Below are positions 18,279 through 41,600 of a stretch of DNA of 64,000 nt, piece after piece. Source of the DNA: Arbacia lixula (Eukaryota > Echinodermata > Echinoidea > Arbacioida > Arbaciidae); the NCBI GenBank assembly GCA_963669155.1, contig OZ022588.1:1643247-1707246 (forward strand). The letters are read 5' to 3'. The notes beneath the pieces were generated by a model. The model worked only from the letters and a program-made list of their open reading frames with translations. It was not told where the DNA came from and searched no databases. A program made the position numbers and the translations under genes. Each line of letters starts with the position of its first letter. The stretch's first letter is position 1.

Positions 18279-18428
18279 ATGACGTCGAAAGTGATCACAG
18301 AAGCATATGGGAAGAAATTGCTGGTGAAGTCGTTGCCGACACATGTAGGAGAGTTGCGTGTGGTGACGGTTAATGCAGAAACTGATTGGGAGGAGACCGT
18401 GAAGGAGCACAGCTGGCTCCGGGAAGAG
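18279..18428 (+). CDS. ACLY-like: ACLY-like exon 1 (start codon)
   Basis: Residues 1-50. MTSKVITEAYGKKLL parallels the human start MSAKAISEQTGKELL, which fixes the initiator; an A at -3 gives an acceptable context. It ends HSWLREE before donor GAG/GTATAG. Confidence 0.9.
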
Positions 18429-21400: not shown

Positions 21401-22350
21401 AAGCTGAAATTGACACAACATATAGTCAACGGATGTCATTTTTTTAGAAGCAGGTTTTGTGACATTTCATCAATTACCTGTCTTGTAAAACTCCTGCGGA
21501 CATTTTCTGGTGTTTTACTGGTGGACAAATTTGGCTCTGAAAATGTGTGTGTATCAGATAATTAGTTTAGAATACAACAATGGCCACTGTGCATCACACA
21601 TTCGCATCATGTATGAGCATGTTACCAAGGCAATTGGCTCTATACAAACTCACTCCACCGAGGGGTTTAGCGGTCCGATATTGTCTATCGGCCTAGTGTC
21701 CGGCATTCCTTATCACAGTCCTAGTTGTGATCACCGCTGCTTGCTCTACCCGTATTGTTTAGAACCAATTGCATTGACAATAATGCTCAAATGACGTCAC
21801 ACTTCGGTACTCTATTAATAAGACTTTGTGTGTCACGTGTGCACAATGCACATATATCCCATTGAGCATCATTTCATCTGTCTCGTTTCAATTTACGTTC
21901 ATATTTGTGTTATAATGCTGTTTTACTTCGTTTATTTATTTCGTTATTTCGTTGCATGCTTGCAATTGGTCAATTTCTGTTTTGTGTCCGAAGCCCCGAT
22001 GAAGACCTGTAAAATGGTCGAAAGCTTGGCCGATTAAAGGTTGTGAACACACTAGTTACGTCCAGCCGCGTCCTTCTCCTGCAGTCTCAACTATAATTCA
22101 TGATGCGGCACCCATCACGTACGTGGCCGAGGCACCTTCACGCTATATATGTATATGTATATATATAAATATATATATACAGTGAAACCTGTCTATAGTG
22201 GCCCAGGGAAACAAAAATTGTTGCCTTTATAGACAGGTGGCTGCTACAGCCAAGTTCTTTAACACATGATGTCTCTCCGGGGGAATTATTTTAGTGGCCA
22301 CTATAGACAGGTTGGCTGCTATAGACAGGTGGCCACTAAGACGGGTTTGA

Positions 22351-22391
<41 letters not shown>

Positions 22392-25300
22392 TATACCATC
22401 ATATTGAACGCTTTAATCTTTCATACCAACACGCAATGACATAATTCTCCACCCCCCCCCCCCCCCGCCCCCACCCCCATCATTTCCTGTTCTGATAGAG
22501 TCTAGTAGTGAAGCCGGATCAAGGTATCAAGCGGCGGGGGAAGCTCGGGCTGCTCATCCTGGACGTCGACCTCGAGACAGCCAGGAAATGGATTGGGCAA
22601 AAACTCCAAGAAGATATACTGGTATTTATCCATCTATGTTACATAAATTGGTGATGAACCATGTATAGGGCTATATCGAGTGGGTCTCGATGTAGTTACG
22701 TGTTTAGATACACAATACCAGCACTTATCAAGATGTACGGAGTTGTTTTACATTCTTCAACGTGACGCAGCGATTTGATGGGTTATGACAAGTTAAAGGG
22801 TGACTAAATTAGAAAAATAAGTTCCCACTACTATATGTAGAATTATTCACCAAAAACGAATTTCACATTTTTTTGCCGTAATAAAGTCTGATTAAGACGA
22901 AAATTTGAAAAAAAAAAAAAAAAACGCACGCCTCCAGTGACGTCAGAGAAGTAGTAGCGCGTTATTGCATTCACCTCTATCTTGTCATTCATATTCAATG
23001 AATGGAATACACTTTGAATCTATTAGTTGTTGCTTCTCTGACAAACCTAGGACAAGCTTTGGGGTTCCCATCGGTAATGTATTGTTTGAACGGCGTAAAT
23101 AAAATATTTATTCACGCCGTTGGCATTTATGGCATTTTGACTTCTCTGATGTCACTGGAGGCGTGCGTTTTTTGTTTTTTTAAATTTTCGTCAAAATGAG
23201 ACTTTGTTGCGGCAAACGGGTGCGAAAATCGTTTTCAGTGGATAATAAGCCAGTTCGTAATTACAATTTGCGCATGAGCAGATGAAGGTCATAGTGACCA
23301 AACCAGCTTGTTGGTTTTTAAATCACTGAGATAAGCATCATCATTAATAAGTTATTTTAGAATATGCTTGTTATCCAATTTATAAAAGAACACCAAGGTG
23401 TTCAATCATGGGGTATTTGACAACAGGCCAAACGACAACAATTAGTTTACAATAAACAGTGTAATAGAAGCTTTCCCAATTGTTCACAGACCGTAGCCTA
23501 CTATTCTTGTCACCTGTTTTGAGATGGTTCCTTTATTAGAGGTTGAATATCGCAAATTGCTATGTCGGGTAAGCACATTACGTAACATCTCCTTTTGAAA
23601 TGATATATTAATCAACTGCTTATCCTAATGACAAAGGGAAAGGTCATAGTGACCAAACTTGCTCCAGAGCTAACTACGAACTGGAGTGTATTTTACATAG
23701 ATTAGTAGGAGCTTATTTCTCTAATTTAGTAACCCTTTAATATCTCGTGCGCCTCAATGTAAGTGTAGGAATGCCAGTGTATACAAAGTACCAGCACTAA
23801 TCACGTTGTACAAACTAGTTTAAACAACACGTTAAAAGCCGACCAAACCCGGCATGCGTAACTATTAAAGGCTGTGATTGTTTTGGTGATGTCTGCCATC
23901 GAACAAAATAACGCTCCTCGTAGATGGATCTTGACTCATTTTTTCATCAATGATTGATTTATCATTGCAATATGCAGAATAATTACAACCCCATGCAATA
24001 CTTTTATTTGAAGAGTAAAAGTTTCAACATTGCGATTAACAAATTACATCATTACGTCTCCGGATGAAAGTGACGTAGCGTTGCGCTGCGAAATACTTTA
24101 AAATGAGACAGTTTGTTGCAGCGATTGCCGTCTTCTTCCAGAAAAACGGGTGTTTCTTACTTTCTTTCAATCATTTCGTTTCCGTTTTCTCCTTTGTGTT
24201 TTGACAGGGAAACAATACTAAATAAAGAGTGCTGCAAATAGGCTTTCCAACGATACCCAATCTAACAAACAAACGTCAATCCTTGTCTACTTTTTAGTCC
24301 TGTAGACGGTCCCATGGGTTGTGTACATGTTCATATGTGCAAGTTTTTTTATGACATCTTTTTCCAGAAGAATATTGAAGAAATTTTCCTTTTGTTGCCA
24401 CCTTTGCAACCATGACCAATCTTTTGTATTTGCATAATTAGCATAATTTGGTAACTTGAATATATTAGTATTGAGTTAAGTGCTCAATTCAACTAATGAG
24501 GGCGAAAATGAAACACAACACCACTTTTCTTGAGTATTATGTCGAAAATGTATACAGGAGTATTAAGCGCATAATCATGGACATTCAAATATGCGTTGTG
24601 CGCTATTCACAAACGTTTAATCATCATTATCATTAGTAATATGAGAAAATTTACCGGAACAGTGTGTAACGAGATTGATGATTTATACCTGGCCAAGACT
24701 AGGCGAATACTCCAGGGGCACTCATTGATATTCGTCAACATCTCAAGATCGATTTTAACACGTCTTTCCAATCAAACGTACAACGAAACACCGTGAAATT
24801 TACCCTGTAGATTTATGAATGTACCCGTTTATTCAACCACCCAGGTCGACGGACTTCACGGCAGATTGCGAACGTTTATTATCGAGCCTTTCGTTAAACA
24901 CGATCCGAACGCAGATGAACATTACCTATCTCTCTACTCTGAACTGGCTGGTGACGTCATTCTGTTCTACCCACACGGAGGGGTCGATGTGGGGGACGTC
25001 GAAAACAAGGTGAGTAGTTCTGACAAGGGTAGACTAGTTACTAGGCTGAGGGGAGCATAGTCACAACTGAGTCTTTTAACAACTGTGTCTGGTAATACAG
25101 ACTAGACCCCCTAATCCCTCTGACTGCCCTGGATCCTCTTTTCCAGCTGGCGAGGAAGAGGACCCATGGCGCGATTTTTTTTTACCTTTCCACGAACGCG
25201 TCAGATCGGTTTATTTTATTCCCCAAAGCGACTTGAGTAGCACTGCCGCCCCAAGGAAAAACGCAGTAGCTACATTTTGCACAAGTTGAGATATTGAGTA

Positions 25301-28300
25301 TTTAGCATGTTTTTGATTAAAGGTCCCCTGTCATCAAAATGTATGTTGACTTCTGTTGAAGCAACTTAACATGTATATAACAAAATCACTAACTGTTAAA
25401 TGGAAATATGTGTCCTACATTTTAAAATAATTTTCTACCTCCACCTGCCCACAAGAGCATCACATGTCTTCACACAATACTATCTAGCAACCTTACATGT
25501 GGGAATAATCATTTCCTTATGTCAGAAATGTGCTAGCTATGTGATGCTATTATAAGCACTTGCAGGTAGTCATTGCAATTTTTAGTTTGTGCATAAATTA
25601 TGTCTATTATCCTGCTAATTTCTACCTTTGATGATGTCATAGGGGGAATCTTGAGTTGGAGGATATTTTGGAGGCGGTGCTTATCAGTGCTGAGAAAAAA
25701 TATAGAAAAATTATTTTAAAATATAGGACACATATTTCCATTGAACAGTTAGTGATTTTCTTATATACATATTAAGTTGCATCAACAGAAGTCAACATAT
25801 ATTTTGATGACAGGGGCCCTTTAATTATTGCGAATACTTCTATCCTAAAATACAGGCTTTAAGACTGCTCGTGCGAAGTCAAGATCGTATCAGCGAAAAT
25901 GACATACAGGACGCCCTCCTTCGTGGAATTGCAACCGAGAAGAAAGGGTAAGCAGTAAACTTGATTTAAAAGAGAGGAAATTAAGGGGACCAGTATACTA
26001 GTTGACCTACCACGAATGGGCATCGGGTTGTATGCTCACGTTTGTTGATGCATATAACTATGTAGCTCGATGTGGATTTCGGAAAGCCATTTCAGACATA
26101 TTATTGAGCGAAGTAATTTGTTGTTTTACATTCCCTATAATTATGTTTCATTACGTTGAATTAACTTTTACATTGACTTTGATTTATCATACAATTATAA
26201 AAACCACGCAGTATCATTATATTTAATATTTTAGTATGTTAATCATACAAAATGCAACATCTTTTTGTATGAATTATTAATCAAATTGTAATACGAACTC
26301 ATTTGAATTTGATTATAAATTAATTTGTATAGAAAGTTAATAATCTATATACAATTCATGTATGAGTCTATTTCTCTTTATTTATTTTTATTTCGACAGG
26401 TTTGTAATCAAATGCGAGTCGGGTTCGACTAGCACATCTGACTCCATATTACCATTAGTTATAAATCATCTCTGACAGTTTTTGTTTAAATGTTATATAT
26501 TGCGACATGTGTGTTAAGTATTCATGTATCCATGTTATGCAAATTGTCAATAGAAATGTCTTGTTAAGTAGTTCCATACATTCTTGTCAATGATGATGAT
26601 GCTGGTGGTAATAAAACAATCAATCAACGTCGATTACAGAATCACTAACTGTTCATTAAAAATATATATCATATTCATAACTCCTCCATTTCCCTTGCCA
26701 GTTTTTGTTGACCCCCGTGCTTATGTTATCCTCATATATGTTGTGTCCCATCATATGACGATAATGTTTCTCTGTTCAATCTCGTTCATGACAAGCGTAT
26801 TCTTATCTGCTCAAAGGAGCCCTTGTCTTGCTTCAATTATTAGTAAATTCATGACACATCCAAGATATAAATTTATGCATATTAAAAAGTCGATACTATG
26901 CGAATATTTCCAGAAGTGTTTCAAAATAAGCTTTGTTCATTTGTATGTCCGTGTTTAATCTGCTTCAATCTAAGGTAAAATGAATGATTTCAAATGAAAC
27001 AAATCGGTTATGAAGGATATTAAATGTATTTATTTCTTGATTGCTTATTTCCTCACATGTATCTTGTTTCTTCCTATATACACGCAGCAAATTGGCGAGT
27101 TTCATTTTGGATCTTCTTAAGGTATACCAGGATATGCACTTTACTCTTCTAGAGATTAACCCACTCGGTACGTAATCAGTGATGTGTTAATTTTGATGGG
27201 TTTCGCTTGATTAAAGTGAACATTGTTTGATCAATTACCACAAATGCTGCAAGCGTAGACTTAATGCCAGCCACTCCCTCAACGCATGTGTATGCAGGGT
27301 AAGACTAGCGCTTTGATGTACTGGTCTATTAAAAGAAGAAAAGTTTGAAACATTATTTTGTCTTTTTTATTTTTGCTACTGCGTCTTTGATGCATTTCGG
27401 CACAAGTTAAATACACTGCGGCTCAAAGGAATTGGCATGGGGAAAGGGAAAGGGAAGGAGCCTCAGTTTTAAACCAATGTATATGTTGTCCAGTTCAGCA
27501 TGAACCACGATGCTTTAGCCTAAAAAGCATCATGTTTCATACGGAACTGGACAAAGTGTGCCGCGGTTTAAAACGGAGGCTCCTTCCCTTTTTTCCCTTT
27601 CCCTTTCCCTATGGCAATTCCTTTGAGCTGTAGTGTACACAAATCCCATAGAGCAGCATTTCACTTGGCACGTAGAAGGTTAATGACTCAATGACTAGTA
27701 TTTGCGCATGTAAATTGACTTGCGTCAAAGTCGTCATCACCATCAATAATGCTCTATAATAATAGTACATATATACAGGCCGGCTTGATGTGAAATTAGA
27801 CAGCAACAAACAAGTTCAAAGTCCACATTGAGGCCGCTATAAAGCATCGTATAAAGCTCTTCGTCTGGTAACATGGTAACATGTACCCCAGTCTCTAGAT
27901 GGTCCATTTATTTACAAAATGATTGACCAGCCGGAGCCTTTTCGTTTACAAATTTAGTTATTGTCCTTCAAAATATGAATTAGGAATATTAATCAATGTA
28001 TCTACGTATTACTTTAAATGTTTTTCAATTGCGTGTGTATAATATGAGCTGCGGAACACACATCCCAAATCGAAGTGTCCTTTCGTCCTTTCTCTCCAAA
28101 TTTATTCCAAAAGTTTAATGTGTTGGATTGTTAACAAAATTAAATAGCTCGCAAAACGCTGTTAAATACATCTCGAATTTAAATAATCAGTGAAACAACA
28201 CAAAATTTCGGTTTGCAGTTGTTCTGGACAAGGTCTACCCGCTGGATTTGGCCGCCATCTTGGACACCAAAGCTACACCCATGTGTAAGGACCTCTGGGG

Positions 28301-30921
28301 TCAAGTAGAGTTTCCGGTTCCGTTTGGCCGACTACCATGTGAAGAGGTGAGGATTTTGTCTATGACAGGTCTCGACGGACACGCAAATTAAATGATTTGA
28401 ACCTACACACAAACTTTTAACACTTTGGGGGAAAATGAAGAATAAGTTACAATTTGAATGAAAATAAAATGTACGATGTCATATTTTTGGCAAGCCGATT
28501 TAATTACATTTCATTATTTAATTTTTCGCAACATTCAATTGTCATCTTTGTAATAATCTTGGAATATTTAATGAGATTTTCACTTTTGGACACATTTGGA
28601 GCTAACAATTTGTGTGTATGTGATGATTAATTAAAAACATAACAATGTCACTATGCACCACAAATATCAAGCCAAAAGGTCTTCTGTGTCAGAACCATCA
28701 TTTATTATGAAGCTGTTTTGATATCTTTCGTTTGTTTGTTTTTTCCCGTAACTTTTACAGGAATTATTCATCGCAAAGCTGGAACATGGCACTCCGGCTA
28801 ATGTGAAGCTCACAGTGTTGAACAGAGAAGCTCGAATCTGGCCTGCCATCAGCGGTGGTGGTATTTCCCTGTTGCTGGGGTAAGTAGCGACCGGATTATT
28901 TTACGAGTATTAGTTTATTTTCATATCATAAACCTGATAAATATTCCATTGAATGATATGAAGGTCTATAAAAGTATGGCATTCTCCAGTTCAACTACTG
29001 AAGGCTACTTAGATCGTTAATGTGTATGAATAGTGTCGGCACTTTACGACATGTTTGTCTTTGTTTTTATCTTGCAGAGATACCGCTCGGCAACTCGATT
29101 GTTCCCACGAGATAGGCTGCTATGCTCAATTCTCTGGCCCGTTAAACCCAACGCAGATGTACGGCTTCACCAAGACAGTGCTCGAGTTGATGCTTGCGAG
29201 CAAGAACCCGGATGGGAAAGTATTGGTGACCGGCAGTCAGGCTATTGACGTCACAACGCTCTTAGCCAATAGAGAAGGACCTGGCGTGGTAGGTCTCTTC
29301 CACAAATGAATTTGCTTTGCTTTGCTTTGTTCACACTGTTAGGTGTGTACAGGGCCCCAGCTTACAATCACTTCGTCTTTGAGGTCCACATCATGACGAT
29401 ATTTAAAAAGAAAAAGCAATTACAACAACAAAAAAACAACAAACAAACAAACGCAATCACAATTCTATCGTCTTTATCGTTACTGACAGTGAGTTCCAAT
29501 ATGTTTACCCTTCAAAGTAAGAATTATTTACATAAATGTTTAACGGCATTTTGTAAAATACGTTTAGGACTCATATGTCTTATGAAATATTTTATTTATG
29601 ATATCATATATCTTGCTACTAGGTTAAAGGCTTAATAATATGCAGGTAAGTGCATTGTAACAAATATGGTTTCGTCTCTTTTATGGTGTCGAATCGATTT
29701 AAACTATTTACGTTTTGTTATGAGCGTTTTTGTCATGAAAGTGTTATTATGACAGTCGAAGATGTTCTCGTCTGATTATAAACGATTATTTACACAAACA
29801 TATGAGCCATTCTACGTAAATGTCACGCGAGTCACACATATTCCATGTAACACAATTCGCAAACAAGGGTCTAGGTCAAAACTGAGAATATATTTGAGCT
29901 GAATCCATTACTCGATCAAGTAAATCAATCATGTATACCCTGACATGTGACTCGTACGACACAGCATGAGTGACTCGTATGACACTTATATGGAATGGCC
30001 CATATTATTGTTGTGAGTACACATCGACCATTTTTTCCCCCAGTCTTCTCTTCTATTCATCATATTTGCCCCTTCTCCTCCCCTTTCTCATCTTCTTCAC
30101 CCTTCTCTCCCCGTTCTCAGGGCATGATGAAGGCATTAGACGAGTACAAGGAGCGCTTGATCGAGCACAAGGCATCCATCTATATTAGGACAACGGTCGG
30201 GATTGTCGGAGCAGACAACCAGAGACTTCCCGACTCCCTCTCCCTCGCAAAGTTTGGTACGATAGCATGCCTACCACACAATCACCCATTTCCCATTTTT
30301 CTCTAAGAACGGGCGGGCTATGTGGTTGAGTTGAGGCCATCGCAGACGACACGATTCGGTCAGTCGTACGACTCTGCGACTGGCTGAATCGCAGCATCCT
30401 GTCATTGGATTTGTGCAAGAAAGTGACGTCACATGTCCTGTCGTAGGCCCTTACGACTGCAAAATTGTAGCAAATCGTGTTGTCTGCGATGGTCTTCAAT
30501 GGTTGCTTATCCTAGGTACTAGGCTATGAGGTGCATGGGCACAACCCAGTTTGCCAGCAACTACGTCTGGTAACACAGACTACGCCCTAATGACGTCATA
30601 GCTCCTCTGGCTTCTTCCCTTTTCCCGTATCATGCACACCCGTCTTAATACCTGAAAGGATAGCTTTATTGCATGGTTCAACTAACTATAATCAGTATCC
30701 GAATCCCCATAGTGTGCATGTGTGTGTGCGAGAGAGAGAGAGCGAGAGAGAGAGAGAGGGGGGGGTGAGAGAGAGAGGGGGTGAGAGGGAGACAGGCAGG
30801 CAGAGAGAGGGAGAGATAGAGAGAGGGGGAGATAGAGAGAGAGAGGGGGGGTGAGAGGGAGATGGGGTGAGAGGGAGACAGGCAGGCAGAGAGGGGGAGA
30901 GATAGAGAGAGAGAGAGAGTG

Positions 30922-30970
<49 letters not shown>

Positions 30971-33900
30971 AGGAATGGAGGTGGGGGAGACGATGTGGGG
31001 GTGCCGGCACAAATGGCGTCATTACTGGGCTTCCGCCATCAAAGTTTTACGATATGTTTGGATACCAGCAACAATTTTGGACACGGTCAATTGCGTTCGA
31101 TTCTGAAAAAGAAATCGACGCCATTACTACATGCGTGAACCCATTCCTATTCATTCCTAGCCTATGTGCTTATTACTCTTCGCAATGCCTTTGGAACATT
31201 AGATATGTTAATGCTTCATTAATAGTACGAGGAAAGTTCAGTCAAAGTTGTGATTATCACAATGTAAGTCTTTTGGGGGGTTTCGACAGTCTGGGTGCCA
31301 CATAATTATGTACGTACTAAGGGTGCACAAACATAATATAACACAAACCTAAGAACTACAGCCACACACAAAAAAAAAAACGTGTTGATTATGACGATCG
31401 TTGTGAGTTATGTTTCCAATATTCCAATTCACATTAAATATGATATTCATCGTTATAGTAAGATTAACGATTCAACAAGATTCAAAATGCAGTAATAGCA
31501 CACTCGGTGATAAAGAGTAAGAAACCCGGTCTTTGTTATGACAAAGTACAGTTGAGGCCAGAAGTTTACATACACCAAGGAAATTCAAAGAAAAGTTGAC
31601 ACTTACCATACATCATAAAATTTACTCTAATAAAATATTTGTGCTATCATGACGTATCTAATATCGAACAAATGGATATGTCATGCAGCTTCAACACATT
31701 GCTTTGTCATTGGGAGCTGAAAACATTTAAGTGTCATTCTTCCCCCCAAAAAAAAAAATAATAATAATAATAATAGTTTAGACAAATCAAAAATAAAAGC
31801 TCAACTAAAACATTTCATGTTTGTGCTAGTTGCTTCTCAACACAAACATTCCAGATTACACTTTTTTGTTCAGTGGTGACATCATGTATATTATCATGAT
31901 AGAAAATGTAATATGAATCATAGATTTGAGATTTATATATATATATGAAAACGATGTTTGAAATATAATAACAAACAATAGAATACATCTTGCACGAATA
32001 TAACTTTTTTCTTCAAAGAGAATTCCACCTGAAATATAATTTAATCCCAATGGCATTCCAATCATGTGGAAGAGCTTAATGCGTTCTTTCATTTGATACC
32101 AAATCCGTCATGGTAGTATGTATATTTCTGAAGACATAGTAAATTTTACGATGTTTGGCAAGCGAACACATTTCACTGCATTCCATGGGTGTATGTAAAC
32201 TTATGGTCTTAACTCTATATCATTTTTGCTTTTAATTACATTAATATTACATCTTTTTTTTAATTAGGAATACCCGTCTATGTCTTCGGAGGAGAGGTTC
32301 CCATAAAAGACATCATCGGCTATGCGCTAGGACGAGAACAGATCATGCATGACGTGAACAGGCCTCGCGTTTATCAGGTAAGAACTACAGCCCTACAAAA
32401 GATCGCGACATCTTCATTATGACGGTCATTGTGAAAAAAAAAAATCACAAAATTACCATTCAAATTGAATATAATATTCATGGTGATAATATGACGATGA
32501 TGGTAGTGGTTAAAATGTGGAGGGGATAGGGGACAGGGCGAGGACAGAAGAGTTTGTTTTCAAAACATTTTCAAAAAAAATATACAGGTGCCACTTTTTG
32601 TTTAAACCATTGTTGAAATAGCTTCTTTAATGTCGATTTGTTTTTCAAATCGAAATCAAGCTTCAACTATTTTAGAATTGAGCTCTTAACTGACCGAACC
32701 TTCGAAGGTTATGCTCTGATAATACATACAGACTGTTCCCATACAAAATATATCTTACCAACGATAAAACAATTTCAACAATATAACAATTTCTTTGTCC
32801 AAAGTCTCAAGCAACTGCTTAGTTTATTCAAACTAATCAGTGCTCTGTCTTTTAAAGAGTTGCGATTGATCTGAATCGATCGCAAGTCCAGTTATCTATC
32901 TCTAATATAGAGGGTTATGATTGATATTAATCGGAAGTCAAGTTACGATCAATCACATTTCTTCTAAGTTCATATAAGAAATGTTAAAGATGTGTGAAAC
33001 ATTGATATTGTGTTTTTATTGTACTCCGAAGAAACAAGCGGAGAGGCACACATCTCGTTCGGCCAATGGAACCAATGGAACTAATGGGACTAATGGAACC
33101 AATGGAACTCGAAATGGTTATCAAAACGGCAACGGCACAACACAACAAAACGGCAACATCAGAAGGAGTCTGAATCCTGACGATATCTTCAATCCTACGA
33201 CGAGGGTACAATAAAGTCCTTTCTCTTAGTTTCTTCTCCGATTGATTATTCTCCTCAAGTTCTTTTCCTCACGTACTGCTTTCTTCTTCTTTTTGATCTT
33301 CTTTGTGGCTTGCTCGTTTGCCCTTCCATTTCAAATGTCTTCTCCTTCTTCCTTTTCCTTACAAAATTGTGTGTTTCTCTCTCCCTCTTTTTTCTCTACT
33401 TTTCCTTCTTCATCATTACATCTTTTCTTTTCTTATCCTTTTTCTAATCCATATTCTTCACGTTCATCTTCCACGTCTCCTTATACCTTTTCTCATTTAT
33501 TTCGATTGCTTTTTCTTCTCCTTCTCTTTCACCTTCTCCTTCTTTTTTTTTGCTGTCTTCTTTTCTTTCTTCATGCTCTTCACCCCTGTTCCTTTTATTT
33601 GATCCGACTACTTTTGTTCTTCTGCTTTCACCCAATCCTTGACACACATGCCAGGCGGTCGCAGTCGGAATGTTCCCCGTCGCCATCCGTAACATCGTCG
33701 GCTTCGACTACGTGTGTTCGCGAGAAACGCCCTCTATCGCTGCCATCGTCAGACCAAACAGGTTAGTGCTTTGGTCTGTGCTCCATGTCCAATGCATATA
33801 AAAAGAAAATGAAGGACTAAATGAGAATGCAAAATTGAGTACGTTTAAAAGATTGAAAGAATCTAGTATTTCTGTGATAATTAATTAGTCGTAAAGCTGC

Positions 33901-36900
33901 TTTGAGGAGAGAAACACGAATATATTTTCTGCAAAAGAAAACTTATTTTTGCTCATTGCGATTTACGAAGTAACTGGTGTGAAGAAACACAAATAGGTTG
34001 TTACAAAAGAAAGCGTAGTTTTGCTCATTTTGATAAACGTAGTTTGTGTATTTAATGTACACGCGAACTCAACCGTAGAGTACGTCGCTATGGACCAAAT
34101 AGAGCTGCCGTCACAGGTTCATGATAAGGGTTATGCTACAATGTTTGGTTTTAAAGAAAAAAAAGAGTATTTCCTCTTGTTACGTATGATTTCTCACAAG
34201 CTGTTTAAAATCGATTTAGCTGATTTTTCTCTGTTCCTTCATTCTATCACTTGTTCTTCATTTTTGCACTTAGTAAACACAAATTTCGTAGATAAGTGTT
34301 TGGTACTAAGAGAGATAATAAGTCAATTCATATCGGGATGGCATTGCCCTTCAGGGGTTCTTACTTGAAGCGCTGGTCTTTACTTTGATATCTTTCACTT
34401 CAGTGAAGACGGCGAAGAAACGTATCCATGGGGTGAAGACACCATAGCCATTCCTGGTAAGTTCCTTCGATATGTTTTTACAGCTGCATCCTTAGTTCTT
34501 TCATTTTTAGTCATTTTCGAAACGCACCCTGTACATTGTCAATTGCTAATATTCTAAAGATATACACCACAGGCCTTTACTAGCCAATGGATATATTAAA
34601 GACATCCAGTCTTTGAATTATCAGCAAATGTAACATTGTTAATTCCTTTTCCTAGTACCCTGTTTTTCTCAAAGTCCAAAGGAGGTAAAGTTAACCGCAA
34701 AATCAAACAACATCCTGCCTCAATGGTTGTTTTTTCATTGTGTAGCGTTCTAATTATTGAAAATAAATGCAACAATATTGTCTTTCTTTTTTGGCTTTGA
34801 GCATTATAAAGTTAATTTCCTCAAGAAAAATGTATATTTCTTTGCAAATAAGAAGTGTTTTGAGGATGTTTCCCTTATCTGCGCTAGCATAACGTGAATT
34901 TTAGTATGTTCCTTATCAATACCTGAGAACTTGAAAAAAAGGGTAAGTGTTTACGATTATTTTTCTTTCTTTATGCCTAGTTTCCGCAATTACATTCATG
35001 CACCGATTGAAATAGTAAAGTAATTCATTCCGCATTTGAGGACAGCGCACCTCGTAAATTCGTAACTGATGGCACGACATTGGGAACTAGGCATTTTACT
35101 TGTTGTTGAGAGATAGTAAGAAAGGATACGTTGTGTGACGAACTTAGTTTTGTACCAGGCTCCCGTCAATCTTCAAAAAGAACAAATTCGGGGAGGAGGT
35201 TCCCTCCGGGAAAGACCTCAGGGTATTATGATATACATATGTCTTCGTGCGTTTCATATGCAGTTTACGGGAGCCTGGCTGACGCACTCAGTCGTCATCA
35301 TGACGTCACGGTGGTACTCAACCAGGCGATCGGTCCAGCAGGGTTCAAGTGCGCCCTCTACGCTCTCAATCAACCACAGGTAGGACTCGTGGTTTATCCA
35401 CTGAGAGATCAGTGGGTTTATCGCTGAGTGCCGTCATTCCATAATAAACGTCATTAATGTACTTATGCTCAGGCAATGCACAATAGAGAACCGAAGTGTG
35501 ACGTTATTCGAGCATTATCGTCAAGACAACTGGTTCTAAACTATGCGGGTAGAGCAAGCAGCGGTGATCACAGCGGGGACTCCAATGTTCGGAGTGCCCG
35601 ACACTAACCGGCTACACAATATTGGACCGGTAAACCTCTCACTGAAGTGATTTTGTTTAGAGCCAGTTGTCTTGACAACATACTCATATGACGACACCAC
35701 TCTGATTCTCCATTAAGCATGAATATCCAAATTCCATTTGATTTTTATTCATTATATCTTCGTTCTACGCCATGAGTATTATCCGCTTAATTATAAATCA
35801 CCATCGATTAGCTTGCAGTAGCACGTTTTCGATTCACGACAGTACATTTAACATGTTCAAGATGACAAAGATTTTAACCGACCTGCATACACACATCGAC
35901 CTGATTCTAAAGGGGCCGTTCACCATGAAGTTAAGTTTTTATAAAAGTAGAATCATGACAGAAAGAAAAGTGAATGTTTGACGAAAATCCGTCAAAGGAT
36001 AAGAAAGTTATGATCTTCTCTTGTGATTTTGTGTCGTCACGTGCGATGTGCCCTCACATTATGTGGTGTGCTGTATGATTCAATAAATTGCTCTTTTTTT
36101 GTTTTTCTTTTTTTTTCCTCCTGCTCCTCCCCCTCTTCCTCCTTCTTCTCCTCCTCAAAGGTTCGTTGCATACTGATGATGGTGGGCCACATCAGTGAGA
36201 GGCAGTCACGTGACCTCATTCAGCTGGCCAAAGACAGACAGGTTCTGATGATCGGGCCCTCTTCGGTGAGAAAAAGTCTAGAACAGTCTCGATTATGGTC
36301 TTAGTTCCCAAATTATGCTTAGTTTTATCATTGTTGTCAATGGGCATCAAGGAGTAGGCCTATCGTAGAAAACAACCATGAAAACATAAGTTAGTAATGA
36401 TAATGATAATGAAGTTTCATTTCATTTCATTTATTTATTTAGCCAGTAGAAAACAACAAAAATACAACATATTTACATCAATAAAGCAATGTTATAGACC
36501 CCTAAGAAGCAAATCTGCTTATGAGCGAGGCCCTTTACATAACAAAATACACGTATAATCATAATGAATACAATTATAAGTATCATAATTTCGATTCTTA
36601 TCATGCATACTAGAATTATTGATTCATTACGTATGCACTTTACAATGTAGATATTTAGTAGATGTATATGTATAGGTAATGTACTGTCAAAACTCGTTTA
36701 TGAGCGCGCGGGTGTTTTCCTAACAGGGGAAGTGTGAAAGTGCATTGCGTGATATTTTGTTCTGCGTCAGCAGTATTTGCCATGAGATGAAATCCCTGAA
36801 TATCGATCTCAAAACAATATAGAAGTATTAACAAGTTATTCATTGCCATTTTCCTCAGTTTAAGCATGGCTTGCAAGTCAACCTCCTCAAACCCGGATCA

Positions 36901-39900
36901 TTCCGATGCAACCTGTTCGGCGACATTGGTGGGCCGCTACTAGATTTGGTCGAGTTGAAACTGTACCGCCAGGGCAGCGTGGTTTATCTTGCACGGTCGG
37001 GCGGTCTCTCAACAGAACTTTGCGTCTCCATTGCCCGGAACTCAGACGGAATCTACATGGGCATCGCCCTCGGTGGTGGACGGTAATGAAATAGGATCTC
37101 AGCCCGTCGTGATAATGTAACACTATTTGTTAAGGCCTGACTAGCGACCTACAGATTTTTTTTTTTTTTTAATTCTTAATGAACAAAAAAACTGAGACCA
37201 TAACATCGGACAACGTATAACAAAAAAATGTTTATGATCAACAAAAGGAACAGAAAAGTTTCAAAAACGTTTACCCTGGTGAACACAAGCATGGGGAGAG
37301 AGATAAAAACAGATGAAAGAAAGAATACTGTGAATACTGTTCAGTGATATCACCACGACTATTAACTACAGCTAGCAGTTATTTCCGTGCTATGTTCTCC
37401 GAACTTTTATCCCGATTTTTACCAGTGGACTAATCGTCGCTCGTCACAATTAACTCTTTATACGTCATGTATGCGTTTTGTCACCAGGGGGGGGGGGGGG
37501 GGGGGGGGCGGGGGGGTTTTCACCAAACTGTTCGTAAGCTAGAAACGATTTTACGCACAACTGGTGACCCTTTCTCGTGACGCTAAATGAGATAATTGTT
37601 CCTACTTTGTTCCTGTTTTAACATAGGTGGGAGCTAAGTTCCAATAATCGTAATTAAATTTGACAGGTCATAAATTTTCCATTCAGAATTTTAATCTATC
37701 AATATCAGATTTAATCTATCAAGATCAAATTCAGCTGATGGGAATCAAAATCATTCAGAATCTGATTTAGCACAAGAGAGTCGTGCGTAATGTCGTAATG
37801 TCAAAACGTTCTTCTTGCCTTTCATATCCATCATGCCTAGATACACCGGATCCGGATTCATGGACCACATCAATCATCTCCATGACAACCCGTCCGTCAA
37901 GTGTTTCATCCTCATTGGGGAGGTGAGTCCAGGGGTTCCTGGGCGCCGTCTTATAATTATAGAGATGCGATTGATCTGACTCAATCGCAAATCCAATCTT
38001 TTGTCTCTAATTTACAAAGTTACGATTGATATCAATACTATTGCAAGTCAAATCGCGACAATCGCAAGTGTTAATAAGACGGGGCTCAGGGTATGTAATG
38101 CAAAGATTGATGGTAATGTGGCATGCGTTCCATACGTTAACTTCGTGTATCTCGGAGTGAGTTCTTTGTTAATACCTCTATATCAGATCAAAGTTATATC
38201 ACCTCCAATGGAAAGTAAACCCTTTGATACGTTGACTTGAACAAAACAAAACGTTTGAGAAAAATCCAACATGTCATAAAGCAGCTCGTTAGGTTTTTTG
38301 TCTTCATCTTATCGCTAGGACTGTAAATAGGCTTTTTAAGTAAGTAAGTGATGATCTGGGAATTGTTTACTTTTTTACCCATGGTTCACAAAAACGATGA
38401 AAATTTAATAAAGTTTGTCATTTCGGACCAAGTGAGTCGCTCATGAATGTTAGTGATCATGGGTCCGTGCTAGTTCTCAAGACATTACCGAGTCTACACT
38501 AGTCTTCAAAGGTTACTGGGGTAAACATACCATACATTACTGTTGCACCTAAAACATGTGGTTTTTCTTAAGAGCTTATTCCACTTCAATCATATAATTT
38601 TTAAAAACAATTTGTACTGCTTTAAAAAAGTATTAATCCATTTTCATTTGACATTTACAAAAATAGGACAAGAAGACAATTCTACAAGATAATTCTGGTG
38701 GTTTTCTTGATTCTATAGGTTGGCGGTCTCGAGGAGTATGAGGTGTGTGAAGCGCTCAAGAAAGGTCACATATCCAAGCCTCTTATCGCCTTCTGCATCG
38801 GTACCTGCACGGAGCTGTACAAACAAGATGTAACCATCACTTTTCCTTGTGTTATTCGTTATTAATACACCATTTTGGTAATGTACTCGCACCTTTTCCT
38901 CAAACTGCGGAGTAACGCGTTATTACATTCACCTGTATTTCGTGATTTAGTTGCAATGGGTGGTTCGCACCACGACTCCCATTAGTTCTTACTTCTCGGC
39001 AAAGATAACATGAATAAATGACTAAATAAATTACTGAACAATGAAAGAATGATGAAAAGATGAAATACTGAAGAATCGATTGATTTTTTTATGAATTGAT
39101 TAACAAATGTTTGGTTTAATTCATAAATTACTGGATCACTTCATCACAAAATTAATAAAATAAAGCATTAACTAATTAATCTATCAAGAATCAATAGATG
39201 AACGGTAAATTATTGATCAATGAAAGGATAAATAAATAATCAATACATACATACATTGATAGATCATGATAAAATAAATTCGTCGCACATAGTACATCAA
39301 TGGCTCGATACAACTCCACCAAGATGTTCTTAGGCTAAGAACGATTTTTCTCACCACTGGTAACCCTTTCTTGTGCTAAATCGGATGCTCAATAATTTTG
39401 ATTCCCATCAGCTTTAAGTTGAAATCTGATCTTAATCAATCAAAATTCTTGTTGTTAACAAGTTTACTATTTTGTAAAATTTGATGAGGATTGTTAGAAA
39501 TTAGCTCCCACTATGTTAAAACAGGAGCACATTGGGTTATCTGAATTAGCACATGAAAGGATCACCAGTCGTGTGTAAAGTCGCACTTAGCTTAAGAACA
39601 GCTTGGTGAAACACCTCGGCCCTGAACGCATTTCAACCCATTTCGTCCCCGTGCAGCCTGCCTACTTCGGTCACACTGGAGGCGGTACAGACAGCGAACG
39701 AGAGGGTGCCGTGGTAAAGAATAACGCTTTGGCCGCAGCGGGCGCTATTGTTCCAGAAACCTTCGACTCTATGGCTGTCAAGCTCGCGTAAGTTCATTTT
39801 AGAATGTGTGTTAGGGGGGGGGGGGGGGGGTCGGGTCTATTAAAAGTATGCGTTTCTTATTTCGAAAAAAAACAACATTTTAAAGTATGCATTGATTGAT

Positions 39901-40617
39901 TTTGGTTTACTTTAATGTCGATGGAAATCGTACTTGGAGCATATTGCCTTTTATTATTTTCCTGTCAAAATAAATGAGAAATATATGATCAAAATCAAAA
40001 TAGGAGAGACCGGTCGTCCTCAAAGAAGATCGTCACTCTCACAAATATTACGCCTGCCGCCTGACGTTGCGACATAACGTCCTAAGCGATCACAAAACCG
40101 AAGAACACTACCTGTTAAAAAAAAACTTTTGATCAATAACTTTTTTTTTCAACTTGTATGATATTTAAACACTGTAAGGGATGTTGATGGACGTCAGAAT
40201 TTGGGGATGCAATTGATACAAAAACCGTGAATTGATATGCCTGCAAAAAAAAAAATCTTTGAATGTTTAGTTGGTTTGTGTACGTCACTTATCTGATTCA
40301 AACATTGCAATACCTATTGGTTTATTGGCCAGATTCATAAAATACATTACCATACAATAACAACATACAATACATTAGCAATAACATTAGCAATAACAAC
40401 ATACAATACATTAGCATACAGTAACAACATACAATACAAACACAGAACAAAAAAGAAATCTTAAAGAATTATTTTGTATTTTTATTTTGACGTGTGTTAC
40501 AGGGAGGTATACGACCAGCTCAGTGTGGAGGGTAAACTCGCACCCATTCACGAACCTGAGGTACCAAGCATACCCCTCAACATGAACGCAGAGAGACGCC
40601 CACCCGTGCTCAGCTAG
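18279..40617 (+). CDS. ACLY-like: ATP-citrate lyase-like protein lacking the citryl-CoA lyase domain (20 exons, 843 aa)
   Basis: Exons: 18279-18428, 22499-22621, 24845-25009, 25856-25947, 27088-27167, 28219-28346, 28761-28879, 29078-29288, 30121-30256, 32268-32377, 33032-33205, 33655-33761, 34404-34456, 35264-35379, 36161-36265, 36859-37082, 37841-37922, 38719-38829, 39657-39787, 40503-40617. All junctions are GT/AG, phases match, and the total is 2532 bp. It tracks human ACLY (1101 aa) through the ATP-grasp, citrate-binding, CoA-binding and phosphohistidine domains. It stops where the citrate synthase-like domain (about human 836-1101) would begin. Retained: IKRRGK, IIEPFV, LDLAA, GEVGG and FGHTGG (His768). 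Changed: human Glu599 to Gly597, Arg379 to Thr380, Asn346 to Asp343. Such a protein could make an acyl-phosphate or acyl-CoA but could not cleave citryl-CoA by itself. ACLY tetramerises through the missing domain, so its assembly should differ. It could be an acid-thiol ligase for another substrate or a pseudo-enzyme. Confidence 0.92.
18490..18560. repeat. C-run and CT microsatellite
   Basis: A run of about 16 C is followed by (CT)n and CTCTCC variants, just inside intron 1. Confidence 0.95.
18826..19195. repeat. Foldback element, family A, partial copy
   Basis: Shares GATAATTGATTCAGAACACA and TCATTAATAATGCATGATGC with the other family A copies. The left arm is truncated. Confidence 0.7.
19290..19790. 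repeat. Dispersed repeat, family G, partial copy
   Basis: Contains GATGCAGATTTATT and the AATGTTCCGCATTATATTCC segment also found near 8750. Confidence 0.5.
19905..20645. repeat. Family A foldback interrupted by a family F element
   Basis: Family A sequence runs to about 20265. It is interrupted by a complete family F copy (20266-20609), then resumes with TTTTTCAAAAGTGTCAAAG. This is direct evidence that F inserted into A. Confidence 0.75.
20266..20609. repeat. Inverted-repeat element, family F, copy 2 (nested)
   Basis: Ends AATAAGCCATTTCGTAATTG and GTAATTACGAAATGGTCTAT. The interior is very similar to copy 1 at 14559-14907, suggesting recent activity. Confidence 0.85.
21330..21605. repeat. 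Family A foldback, left half, truncated by a family B copy
   Basis: The left arm runs from CTGTTAACACTTTAAG to GCACACA-like sequence and breaks at about 21605, where a family B end starts. Confidence 0.65.
21606..21819. repeat. Family B MITE, copy 3
   Basis: Starts with TATGAGCATGTTACCAAGGC and ends TGACGTCACACTTCGGTACT. The core AGTGTCCGGCATTCC is in inverted orientation relative to copy 1. Confidence 0.7.
22180..22353. mobile_element. TA-flanked MITE (mariner/Tc1 type)
   Basis: A 174-bp element. The left end is CAGTGAAACCTGTCTATAGT and the right end is its complement (...GACGGGTTTGACTG), with TA on both sides inside a (TA)n microsatellite. Internal GTCTATAGTGGCC motifs are repeated in both orientations. 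No ORF. Confidence 0.8.
22499..22621 (+). CDS. ACLY-like: ACLY-like exon 2 (ATP-grasp start)
   Basis: Residues 51-91. SLVVKPDQGIKRRGKLGLL parallels human LVVKPDQLIKRRGKLGLV; the Lys and RRG contact ATP in ACLY. The acceptor is the first of two nearby AGs (GATAG/AGT), chosen because it keeps the frame. Donor CTG/GTATTT. Confidence 0.9.
22793..23741. repeat. Long inverted-repeat element carrying a nested insertion
   Basis: The outer ends TTAAAGGGTGACTAAATTAG and CTAATTTAGTAACCCTTTAA are complementary. The inner arms ACGCACGCCTCCAGTGACGT and GATGTCACTGGAGGCGTGCG also pair. The right arm is interrupted at about 23248-23692 by a family F-like element. Confidence 0.75.
23248..23692. repeat. Family F-related element nested in another repeat
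   Basis: The left end AATAAGCCAGTTCGTAATTA matches family F. The interior differs and carries AAGGTCATAGTGACCAAAC twice, near each end. Confidence 0.6.
24845..25009 (+). CDS. ACLY-like: ACLY-like exon 3 (ATP-grasp)
   Basis: Residues 92-146. RTFIIEPFVKHD carries the ATP-grasp Glu (human Glu118), followed by YPHGGVDVGDVENK, matching human HHEGGVDVGDVDAK. Acceptor CACCCAG, donor AAG/GTGAGT. Confidence 0.93.
25317..25833. repeat. Foldback element, family E
   Basis: The left arm TTAAAGGTCCCCTGTCATCA is complementary to the right arm GATGACAGGGGCCCTTTAA. Arms of about 130 bp include CACTAACTGTTAAATGGAAA and its complement. A fragment of the same family lies at about 13493-13530. Intronic. Confidence 0.85.
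25856..25947 (+). CDS. ACLY-like: ACLY-like exon 4
   Basis: Residues 147-177. ALRLLVRSQDRISENDIQDA corresponds to the human KLLVGVDEKLNPEDIKKHL helix region and is divergent. Acceptor AATACAG, donor GG/GTAAGC. Confidence 0.85.
27088..27167 (+). CDS. ACLY-like: ACLY-like exon 5
   Basis: Residues 177-203. KLASFILDLLKVYQDMHFTL then LEINPL; the EINPL motif is diagnostic of the ACLY / succinyl-CoA synthetase beta family. Acceptor CACGCAG, donor G/GTACGT. Confidence 0.92.
27414..27635. mobile_element. 222-bp MITE with TA target duplication
   Basis: Terminal inverted repeats CACTGCGGCTCAAAGGAATT and AATTCCTTTGAGCTGTAGTG are flanked by TA. Inner arms GGGAAGGAGCCTC / GAGGCTCCTTCCC and GTCCAGTTC / GAACTGGAC also pair. 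Tc1/mariner-like and non-autonomous. Confidence 0.85.
28219..28346 (+). CDS. ACLY-like: ACLY-like exon 6
   Basis: Residues 204-246. PLDLAAILDTKAT matches human VLDLAAKVDATA with the metal/ATP Asp (human Asp216). VEFPVPFGRL matches IEFPPPFGRE. Acceptor GTTTGCAG, donor GAG/GTGAGG. Confidence 0.93.
28405..28665. repeat. Family A foldback, left-arm fragment
   Basis: Shares GTAATAATCTTGGAATATTT and ATTTGTGTGTATG with the other family A copies; it ends about 95 bp before exon 7. Confidence 0.65.
28761..28879 (+). CDS. ACLY-like: ACLY-like exon 7
   Basis: Residues 247-286. VKLTVLNREARIWPAISGGG matches human [20 protein letters not shown], the end of the ATP-grasp domain. Acceptor TTTTACAG, donor GG/GTAAGT. 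Confidence 0.93.
29078..29288 (+). CDS. ACLY-like: ACLY-like exon 8 (citrate-site half)
   Basis: Residues 286-356. CYAQFSGPL keeps the Ser-Gly equivalent to human Gly309. NPDGKVLVTGSQAIDVTT aligns without gaps to HPDGKILIIGGSIANFT, so human Asn346 is Asp343 and Thr348 is kept (Thr345). Acceptor TCTTGCAG, donor GTG/GTAGGT. Confidence 0.92.
30121..30256 (+). CDS. ACLY-like: ACLY-like exon 9 (Arg379 position altered)
   Basis: Residues 357-401. DEYKERLIEHKASIYIRTT corresponds to human RDYQGPLKEHEVTIFVRRG. Tyr364 is conserved (Tyr365), but the second Arg (human Arg379, a citrate contact) is Thr380. The following loop is longer than in human. Acceptor CGTTCTCAG, donor G/GTACGA. Confidence 0.92.
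30333..30503. repeat. Palindromic MITE in intron 9
   Basis: About 170 bp. The ends TTGAGGCCATCGCAGACGAC and TTGTCTGCGATGGTCTTCAA are complementary, as are inner GACTG/CAGTC-type arms. No ORF. Confidence 0.8.
30728..30968. repeat. Purine-rich GA/GGGA microsatellite
   Basis: About 240 bp of GAGA, GGGGA and GACAGGCAGG units, with an internal approximate duplication of GTGAGAGGGAGACAGGCAGG. Apparent long ORFs here are low complexity and not genes. Confidence 0.95.
31549..32215. mobile_element. Non-autonomous Tc1 / Sleeping Beauty-like element in intron 9
   Basis: The left end AGTTGAGGCCAGAAGTTTAC followed by ATACACC strongly resembles the Tc1-like Sleeping Beauty terminal repeat. The right end GGTGTATGTAAACTTATGGT followed by CTTAACTC is its complement. 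TA flanks both sides (31547-31548 and 32216-32217). The 667-bp interior has no transposase ORF. Confidence 0.88.
32268..32377 (+). CDS. ACLY-like: ACLY-like exon 10
   Basis: Residues 402-438. GIPVYVFGGEVPIKDIIGYA then LGRE matches human [22 protein letters not shown], the end of the citrate-binding half. Acceptor TTTTTTTAATTAG lies only about 50 bp after the Tc1-like element. Donor CAG/GTAAGA. Confidence 0.92.
32850..32968. repeat. Small palindromic repeat, family H, copy 1
   Basis: Contains GAGTTGCGATTGATCTGAAT and partial complements. Related copies lie at 37958-38090 and 48945-49090. Confidence 0.6.
33032..33205 (+). CDS. ACLY-like: ACLY-like exon 11 (Asn-Gly-Thr linker)
   Basis: Residues 439-496, the disordered linker between the two halves of the synthetase. 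It contains five in-frame NGT units coded by a 9-bp minisatellite (AATGGAACC variants), then NGNGTT and QQNGNIRRSLNPDD. The human linker here carries regulatory phosphoserines, which are not preserved; IRRSL is a possible basophilic-kinase site (inference). The acceptor CCGAAG is weak, so the exon start is less certain. Donor AGG/GTACAA. Confidence 0.78.
33655..33761 (+). CDS. ACLY-like: ACLY-like exon 12
   Basis: Residues 497-532. NIVGFDYVCSRETPSIAAIV matches human [20 protein letters not shown], the start of the CoA-binding half. Acceptor CATGCCAG, donor AG/GTTAGT. A CT/TTC-rich tract precedes it in the intron. Confidence 0.94.
34404..34456 (+). CDS. ACLY-like: ACLY-like exon 13 (53-bp small exon)
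   Basis: Residues 532-549. SEDGEETYPWGEDTIAIP corresponds to human KQKFYWGHKEILIP. Acceptor TTCACTTCAG, donor G/GTAAGT. Confidence 0.9.
35264..35379 (+). CDS. ACLY-like: ACLY-like exon 14
   Basis: Residues 550-588. VYGSLADALSRHHDVTVVLN corresponds to human [20 protein letters not shown]. The acceptor CATATGCAG was chosen over the in-frame sequence further upstream because it gives a gapless IPV junction. Donor CAG/GTAGGA. Confidence 0.9.
35484..35715. repeat. Family B MITE, copy 4 (best preserved)
   Basis: 232 bp. The left TAGAGAACCGAAGTGTGACG and right CACCACTCTGATTCTCCATTA ends are complementary. The inner GTCAAGACAACTGGTTCTAA pairs with TTAGAGCCAGTTGTCTTGAC. Confidence 0.85.
35908..36058. 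repeat. Family C foldback, single arm
   Basis: AAAGGGGCCGTTCACC-type start, then ATCCGTCAAAGGATAAGAAA and GTCACGTGCGA as in the other family C left arms. The partner arm is missing. It ends about 100 bp before exon 15. Confidence 0.65.
36161..36265 (+). CDS. ACLY-like: ACLY-like exon 15 (catalytic Glu599 replaced by Gly)
   Basis: Residues 589-623. VRCILMMVGHISERQSRDLI aligns without gaps to human [20 protein letters not shown], anchored by the following MIGP/IIGP. Human Glu599, the catalytic glutamate also conserved in succinyl-CoA synthetase alpha (TEGIP), is Gly597, followed by His598. Acceptor CTCAAAG after a C/T tract; donor TCG/GTGAGA. Confidence 0.93.
36400..36660. repeat. Probable LINE/SINE 3' tail (minus orientation)
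   Basis: TTTCATTTCATTTATTTATTTAG followed by AT-rich sequence with GAGCGAGGCCCTTTACATAA resembles the 3' end of a retroposon. No RT coding is visible. Confidence 0.35.
36859..37082 (+). CDS. ACLY-like: ACLY-like exon 16 (RSGG nucleotide/CoA region)
   Basis: Residues 624-698. GSFRCNLFGDIGGPLLD, then YRQGSVVYLARSGGLSTEL and GIYMGIALGGGR, parallel human GCFKIGNTGGMLDN, YRPGSVAYVSRSGGMSNEL and GVYEGVAIGGDR. About five extra residues follow the IGP motif. Acceptor TTCCTCAG, donor CG/GTAATG. Confidence 0.94.
37488..37517. repeat. G-run (G-quadruplex potential)
   Basis: About 22 consecutive G, then C and seven more G, in intron 16. Confidence 0.9.
37518..37810. repeat. Inverted-repeat element, family I, copy 1
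   Basis: The left end TTTTCACCAAACTGTTCGTA then CGCACAACTGGTGACCC, and a right part with GAGTCGTGCGTAATGTCG, match the copy at 39306-39614. The right end is degraded. Confidence 0.6.
37841..37922 (+). CDS. ACLY-like: ACLY-like exon 17
   Basis: Residues 698-725. RYTGSGFMDHINHLHDNPSV then FILIGE; Glu725 is the equivalent of the conserved GEIGG glutamate (human Glu718). Acceptor CATGCCTAG, donor GAG/GTGAGT. Confidence 0.93.
37958..38090. repeat. Family H palindromic repeat, copy 2
   Basis: GATGCGATTGATCTGACTCA with partial complements; similar to 32850-32968 and 48945-49090. Confidence 0.6.
38719..38829 (+). CDS. ACLY-like: ACLY-like exon 18
   Basis: Residues 726-762. VGGLEEYEVCEALKKGHISK then FCIGTC parallels human [20 protein letters not shown] and WCIGTC. 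Acceptor TTCTATAG, donor GAT/GTAACC. Confidence 0.92.
39306..39614. repeat. Inverted-repeat element, family I, copy 2
   Basis: The left CACCAAGATGTTCTTAGGCT and right TTAGCTTAAGAACAGCTTGG ends are complementary, with inner ACCACTGGTAACC / GGATCACCAGT arms. It ends about 40 bp before the exon 19 acceptor. Confidence 0.8.
39657..39787 (+). CDS. ACLY-like: ACLY-like exon 19 (phosphohistidine)
   Basis: Residues 763-806. YFGHTGGGTDSE carries His768, equivalent to human His760 in FGHAGA, which carries the phosphoryl group. VVKNNALAAAGAIVPETFD matches the human CoA-region VAKNQALKEAGVFVPRSFD. Acceptor CCCGTGCAG, donor GC/GTAAGT. Confidence 0.94.
39788..40502. other. Intron 19
   Basis: Contains a G-run at 39816-39830 and degenerate tandem repeats of AACATACAATACATTAGC at about 40350-40440. 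No extra exon is seen. Confidence 0.6.
40503..40617 (+). CDS. ACLY-like: ACLY-like exon 20 (premature domain end)
   Basis: Residues 806-843. EVYDQLSVEGKLAPIHEPEV parallels human SVYEDLVANGVIVPAQEV. The exon then reads PSIPLNMNAERRPPVLS and stops at TAG (40615-40617). The human linker at the same place continues into the citrate synthase-like domain. GAG/GTACCA at 40560/40561 is a possible alternative donor in phase 0. Confidence 0.92.
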
Positions 40618-41600
40618 GACTTGAACGTCCCACCTTCATTAAGTTCACCCGAGATGCGAGAACATTCTCGGCTCACATGGAACAAGCAACGCATGTCCAC
40701 TATAACTAAGAATAATATCATATTTACAAATGGAGCTGTACAATGTTTTATAAAGCGAGGACAGAATCGCAGTGTAATATTAATTATGCATTATTTATTT
40801 GGATTAAATGGTATCTTCGGGTACATATACATAATTCGTATAATAACTTGAATATGTAACATTTAAAAATATCTTCATATCTTTGTTAGATATGTGAGTC
40901 CTCTATTTTGTTTCTATTGTAATTTAATCTACAAGAACAATGTCAAATGTTGTCGAAATTTGGGAAGTAGAATGAAATAAACGTATTAAGGAAATAAAAA
41001 GGGGAAATTGAATTTACAAACATGAAATAGAGGAGAAAACAAAAAGTTACAAGGAACGATCTGTTAATTTTCGTCATGTTTCTGATTTGAGTCATTGCAA
41101 GATGGAATTATTTAAACACTCTGGATACTGATACATGTATTATTGTTTTTATTCACAACAACATATTTTTGTATAACAATAGGAGCACTGAAAAATTACT
41201 CCCCAAATTATCTAAGATATCTGAGTATAGATGTGTGAATACGCGTTCCAATTATGGACCTATAGTGCTAGTCAAATTTGGTCCTTATAGTAAGCATATT
41301 TGGCCAAATACAAGTTTCAACATCTGTGCTGACTAGATAAAAAGATGAATATTGAATACGTTGTCATTATGATATAAAGTATACAAATTATTTTATATTC
41401 TGCGAGCATCAATTGACCAATCGCGTTCCTAGAATACTTATGAATATTCATAGAATGGATATAAATTTGTTTATACTATCTCTACAATGATATATTTACA
41501 TGTATATAAATGATTATACTACTTGTTTAAGACAAGTATTGAAGACGAAGACTTACTATGAACATGATGAATAAAGCGTATTGTGACCACAGTTGAGGTG
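40618..41600 (+). other. ACLY-like: Probable 3' UTR of the ACLY-like gene
   Basis: AT-rich and non-coding. AATAAA occurs at 40976-40981, 40993-40998 and 41570-41575. Confidence 0.55.
40976..40998 (+). promoter_or_regulatory. ACLY-like: Candidate polyadenylation signals
   Basis: Two AATAAA hexamers about 17 bp apart, roughly 360 bp after the stop codon; a third lies at 41570. Confidence 0.5.

Follow-up and report, generated by a model that had tools for sequence, protein, structure and literature searches.

How a sea urchin comes to carry a gene that has the synthetase half of ATP-citrate lyase (ACLY) and stops before the lyase half, and what the protein made from it could do, are the questions raised by a locus of Arbacia lixula that lies within an analysed stretch of 64,000 nucleotides, here called the window. 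The gene occupies positions 18279-40617 and was rebuilt from 20 exons, with introns that are GT-AG in 19 of 19 cases and a frame that stays open throughout the 843 residues to a TAG stop at 40615-40617. This model agrees with the initial annotation, which had described 20 in-phase exons, 843 residues collinear with human ACLY and then a TAG. The exons and the polyadenylation signals that follow them are these:

18279..18428, plus strand: exon 1, with the start ATG at 18279
22499..22621, plus strand: exon 2, ATP-grasp (KPDQ..RRGKLG)
24845..25009, plus strand: exon 3, ATP-grasp (EPF)
25856..25947, plus strand: exon 4
27088..27167, plus strand: exon 5, LEINPL, Mg-site Asn retained
28219..28346, plus strand: exon 6, Mg-site Asp retained
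28761..28879, plus strand: exon 7, beginning of the citrate-binding-like domain
29078..29288, plus strand: exon 8, Asp codon 29247-29249 at the place of human ACLY Asn346
30121..30256, plus strand: exon 9, Thr codon 30190-30192 at the place of human ACLY Arg379
32268..32377, plus strand: exon 10
33032..33205, plus strand: exon 11, variable linker that contains Asn-Gly-Thr repeats and is 9 bases shorter in the gene's second copy
33655..33761, plus strand: exon 12
34404..34456, plus strand: exon 13, forming with exon 14 the equivalent of one 169-base ACLY exon
35264..35379, plus strand: exon 14, Pro at the place of human ACLY Arg576
36161..36265, plus strand: exon 15, Gly codon 36185-36187 at the place of human ACLY Glu599
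36859..37082, plus strand: exon 16, CoA-ligase domain with family-specific inserts (FKHGLQ; 3 residues)
37841..37922, plus strand: exon 17
38719..38829, plus strand: exon 18
39657..39787, plus strand: exon 19, phospho-histidine (human His760) codon 39672-39674 retained
40503..40617, plus strand: exon 20, terminal, read through the site of the ACLY splice donor as far as RRPPVLS, followed by TAG
40976..40998, plus strand: two AATAAA polyadenylation signals (starts 40976 and 40993), about 360-380 bases after the TAG

The product aligns collinearly with ACLY's synthetase half (ASH) and belongs to the ASH superdomain by sequence; against PDB sequences its top matches were human ACLY, over query residues 1-835 (E 1.4e-180). 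Pfam found Citrate_synth_N, Citrate_bind and Ligase_CoA above their cut-offs on the 843 residues and no citrate-synthase domain, so the lyase half (CSH) that belongs to an ATP-citrate lyase is missing from it. The initial annotation had seen no exon for the C-terminal domain within 12 kb, a claim borne out over a much wider span, as neither the window nor the sequence downstream to C13:1860000, about 176 kb past the stop and with one 200-N gap inside, yielded a CSH exon. In tblastn searches with the CSH half of a starfish ACLY, C13:1705001-1800000 gave no match at E 1, and the window and C13:1800001-1860000 gave matches at chance level only (E of at least 0.53). A query with the CSH half of the animal's own ACLY gave no match at E 0.1 in the window or in either of these two intervals. 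As a positive control, a full-length starfish ACLY query recovered the CSH exons of the complete ACLY gene of the same animal, to residue 1091 of 1093.

The place where the reading frame ends suggests how the lyase half was lost. Where the exon ending ...NWA stops in the ACLY of the same animal, the donor AG|GTAAGT follows; the aligned bases in the short gene are AG|ACGCCC, and six codons are translated past the donor place before the TAG. Since the ACLY donor is absent and the stop lies six codons beyond it, the truncation looks like the loss of one splice donor plus read-through. An old duplicate of animal ACLY would have lost the donor after the exon that closes the synthetase half, its mRNA would then end inside the former next intron, and the protein would stop at the ASH/CSH boundary.

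The genome was searched for a full-length ACLY, as the initial annotation had proposed, and one is present on another scaffold, C14. Of eight candidates scored in a Pfam search for Citrate_bind across the 607-Mb genome, five were matches. Three of these are exons of the C14 gene, the fourth is in the window and the fifth belongs to a second copy of the short gene, 153.6 kb downstream. The corresponding citrate-synthase search of the genome pointed to one place and missed known CSH exons of ACLY, so that it has no bearing on stand-alone CSH genes. In the C14 gene, the intron at about 13261336-13262551, between exons 5 and 6, seems to be GC-AG (CTTG|GCAAGT).

The second, diverged copy of the short gene lies at C13:1815403-1837656, within a copy of the window about 151-156 kb downstream, and has all 20 exons intact, encoding 840 residues. 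Comparison of the two copies of the gene gives a dN of 0.0070 and a dS of 0.0751 (dN/dS about 0.09), which indicates that amino-acid changes have been held back. The two are separated by a 200-N scaffold gap (C13:1754517-1754716) and sit in a longer matching stretch of 30 aligned blocks of more than 600 bases at 87.6-97.5% identity, covering the window and slightly beyond; further out there are short matches only. The second copy may be the other haplotype, retained by the assembly, or a recent tandem or segmental duplicate.

A search with the 843-residue query found 985 proteins, and among the best 120 were six short proteins of the same family at 43-73% identity (ranks 1-4, 10 and 14), representing five genes from five species plus a second Apostichopus model (P0014) in which the family residues are present. 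The orthologue of Lytechinus pictus has 825 residues (73% identity) and that of Diadema antillarum 824 (65%); those of Strongylocentrotus purpuratus (680 residues, 73%) and Apostichopus japonicus (648 residues, 49%) are missing the N-terminus, and that of Holothuria leucospilota (P0010) has 680 residues at 45% identity. The sea cucumber members as a group are at 45-51% identity, with incomplete gene models. Full-length ACLYs among the same best 120 reach 38-41% identity to the short protein, and L. pictus and A. japonicus each carry a full-length ACLY as well. In the alignment, the window protein and those of L. pictus, D. antillarum, S. purpuratus and A. japonicus all stop no more than 1-2 residues from one shared column, with related tails (RRPPVLS in the four sea urchins, RPPAVL in A. 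japonicus, in the same columns), and the Holothuria model stops short of that shared end. The P0010 sequence leaves the family pattern after GGGR, which suggests a model error or a broken gene in H. leucospilota.

A pseudogene, or a gene-model artefact of a full-length gene, could be suspected from the missing lyase domain and from the early stop of the annotated Holothuria protein, and is scarcely credible when set against two intact copies with a dN/dS of 0.09, orthologues that share one end point and a CSH exon not found downstream. Neither relaxed constraint nor a broken frame was seen in the short gene, and the pseudogene and missed-exon readings were rejected on the intact copies, the shared ends and the searches for CSH exons. 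The initial annotation had called the gene a paralogue and not a pseudogene; its intact frames, the intact second copy, the dN/dS ratio and the orthologues with the same end support the view, drawn from sequence comparison, that it is a truncated ACLY paralogue.

The distribution of the family was followed with a profile of five members. Among the best 120 of its 1220 matches there is no member from animals other than sea urchins and sea cucumbers, and no further species; four members appear in this set and P0004, itself a row of the profile, is absent, so that members can be missed. For the starfish Patiria miniata a full-length ACLY only was among the matches listed, and an absence of the short family from starfish is weakly suggested. 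Five further proteins were considered as members and rejected. P0008 (822 residues), P0033, P0133 and P0152 are without a recognised citrate-synthase domain, although the last three (920-945 residues) still extend into CSH, and P0121 was checked for its unusually high score; all five keep N346, R379, R576, E599 and D690 and, judged by these residues, are cut or alternative ACLYs outside the short family. P0008, from a 3822-base contig, stops directly after PPTVPMDY, at that same ASH/CSH boundary and with the canonical residues complete; its contig may be cut, or it may be a copy left unspliced or a further form with ASH only. No literature on a short ACLY-like family was found among the open-access PMC papers listed. 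The passage on ACLY in PMC6037860 concerns a CSH peptide, and because the peptide lies in CSH it belongs to normal ACLY and not to the short gene.

The introns of the short gene point to its descent from an animal ACLY. The script found 14 of the 19 to agree in position and phase with introns of the animal's own ACLY, and four more were matched by eye: those at columns 204, 402 and 624 once a GC-AG intron and adjacent indels are allowed, and that at column 439 by a same-phase counterpart within an unalignable linker. One extra intron, at column 550 (34457-35263), is not in the animal's own ACLY and cuts its 169-base exon into 53 and 116 bases. In the tree the short clade is a firm split (100/100) within which the window gene groups with the sea urchins, and the long branch of the clade leaves its root place unsettled. 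By AU tests, on groups chosen after the first tree had been inspected, a clade of the short proteins with all four echinoderm ACLYs was not rejected (p 0.105), nor was one with echinoderm and hemichordate ACLYs (0.217), and one with only the sea urchin and sea cucumber ACLYs was rejected (0.00975). A duplicate would have been retained in sea urchins and sea cucumbers, diverging most strongly in its citrate-binding and CoA-binding regions.

Six short proteins were compared with 20 ACLYs, residue by residue in human ACLY numbering. In ACLY crystal structures G309, N346, T348 and R379 bind citrate, and R576 is linked to CoA; functional roles are also ascribed to K58, R66, E108 (ATP-grasp), E201 and E718. 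The ATP-grasp residues K58, R66, G67 and E108 are kept in the four short proteins (of six) that reach them, E201, N203, D216, G309 and R378 in all six, and E718 and the phospho-histidine His760 in all five that reach them. By contrast, the changes N346D, R379T/S, R576P, E599G and D690G are found in 6/6 short proteins, with the human-type residue in 20/20 ACLYs, and so the Asn346, Arg379 and catalytic Glu599 expected of an ATP-citrate lyase are not there. F347 is V in five short proteins and F in one, and T348 is T in four and V in two. The docking passages of PMC9504748 give N346 and T348 as contacts of herbacetin and have R379 reaching another inhibitor through water bridges. In PMC10115795, E599 is catalytic, F347 moves and R576A is among the mutants made.

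Among the 360 columns that do not vary across 13 ACLYs, the short family has the ACLY residue throughout in 143 and a different residue, again without variation, in 47. In the comparison with the animal's own ACLY, identity is lowest in the citrate-binding (37%) and CoA-binding-like (34%) blocks and higher in the ATP-grasp (47%) and CoA-ligase (50%) blocks. Citrate_bind scores fall from 297-302 bits in four ACLYs to 96-114 in five short proteins, Citrate_synth_N scores from 317-329 in the ACLYs to 260-281 in three complete short proteins, and CoA_binding (PF02629) was recognised in none of five short proteins versus three of four ACLYs. The 6-residue insert starts where exon 16 starts. In an AlphaFold model of the L. 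pictus short protein (mean pLDDT 82) the ASH fold is retained.

The initial interpretation survives in part: the truncated paralogue that is not a pseudogene stands, and a reversion to a stand-alone synthetase for citrate is not supported, the citrate- and CoA-side residues being replaced in all six orthologues. Such an enzyme, like that of Hydrogenobacter, would make citryl-CoA for cleavage elsewhere, and the match of the model's fold to 6hxq (rank 42) and the retention of Gly309 and Arg378 in six of six and Thr348 in four of six would suit it. The exchanges N346D, R379T/S, E599G and R576P and the inserts adjoining the pocket do not, and human ASH on its own does not bind CoA (PMC10115795), which together make it quite improbable. 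Replacement of N346, R379, R576, E599 and D690 thus disfavours a citryl-CoA synthetase and argues for an acid-activating enzyme with another substrate, or for a regulator.

Between these two, the kept ATP site and phospho-histidine give preference to a new acid substrate. The reading put forward here, at a probability of roughly one half, is that an old duplicate with a lost donor would have been retained as an ATP-using activator of a non-citrate acid. The short protein would still phosphorylate its histidine with ATP, the phosphorylated protein would then activate a carboxylic acid, probably one other than citrate, and it would act free-standing, outside the CSH-built tetramer and with C-C cleavage gone.

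The thioester step may have been lost, given that E599, R576 and D690 are replaced, CSH is absent and PF02629 is not recognised; what is left would then be a pseudoenzyme, or else an enzyme that uses another acceptor. A dead regulator that senses ATP or a metabolite, or that binds or competes with full-length ACLY, is a tentative alternative: the three replacements recur in 6/6 orthologues, the CSH is missing and the CoA_binding domain is unrecognised, yet no orthologue that extends over the ATP-grasp residues, E718 or the phospho-histidine has lost them. Moreover, it is the CSH that makes the tetramer (PMC10115795), so the short protein would be without that way of joining ACLY. Loss of E599, R576, D690, PF02629 and CSH beside a kept ATP/phospho-histidine side would also suit an enzyme in which some other nucleophile takes the acyl-phosphate, CoA-independent and forming an acyl-phosphate or an amide; the Ligase_CoA domain is still over its cut-off, and this reading is unlikely. 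It is with similar doubt that the whole may be drawn as a half-ACLY enzyme, arisen by splice-site loss, that would pass a non-citrate acid via the phospho-histidine to a non-CoA acceptor.

Set beside known systems, the short protein with its gene resembles the ASH superdomain of animal ACLY in its collinearity, its intron positions (18 of 19; 14 by script and four by eye), its ATP-grasp and phospho-histidine sites and its predicted fold, and differs from ACLY in having no CSH, in the five replaced residues (N346, R379, R576, E599, D690), in its family-specific inserts and in an identity of about 40%. The engineered truncated human ACLYs (PDB 3mwd and 3pff) come close, 3pff (human residues 1-818) having nearly the same end and a TM of 0.82/0.92 with the L. 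pictus model; the short gene is natural, however, and altered on the citrate and CoA side. The citryl-CoA synthetase of Hydrogenobacter (6hxq) is likewise a synthetase without a lyase, of the same fold superfamily, but is built from separate subunits, whereas the short gene encodes a single chain, has the exon structure of animal ACLY and has its citrate residues replaced. Succinyl-CoA synthetase, which also has a phospho-histidine, is of the same superfamily, although the sequence of the short protein is far closer to ACLY.

The short gene is therefore a natural counterpart of the truncated ACLY of crystallography, retained in two echinoderm classes. The share of the ASH half in the ACLY reaction, and the purpose of CSH, are disputed (PMC10115795), and a natural ASH-only protein that is also without E599 offers a ready comparison. 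It suggests that the loss of one splice donor can split a fused enzyme and, as far as sequence can indicate, would point to an unassigned acid-activating reaction in echinoderms.

No functional link to the ACLY-like gene was found among its neighbours in the window, which are the following:

1992-2321 and 4279-4644, minus strand: exons belonging to a sulfotransferase gene that lies upstream of the ACLY-like one, Sulfotransfer_1 above cut-off
6272-6742, minus strand: a reverse transcriptase piece (RVT_1, E 2.8e-06, just below cut-off), likely a retroelement remnant
56647-56943, minus strand: an exon-like frame of a charged protein, with no Pfam family above cut-off, which we take to resemble NFKBIL1
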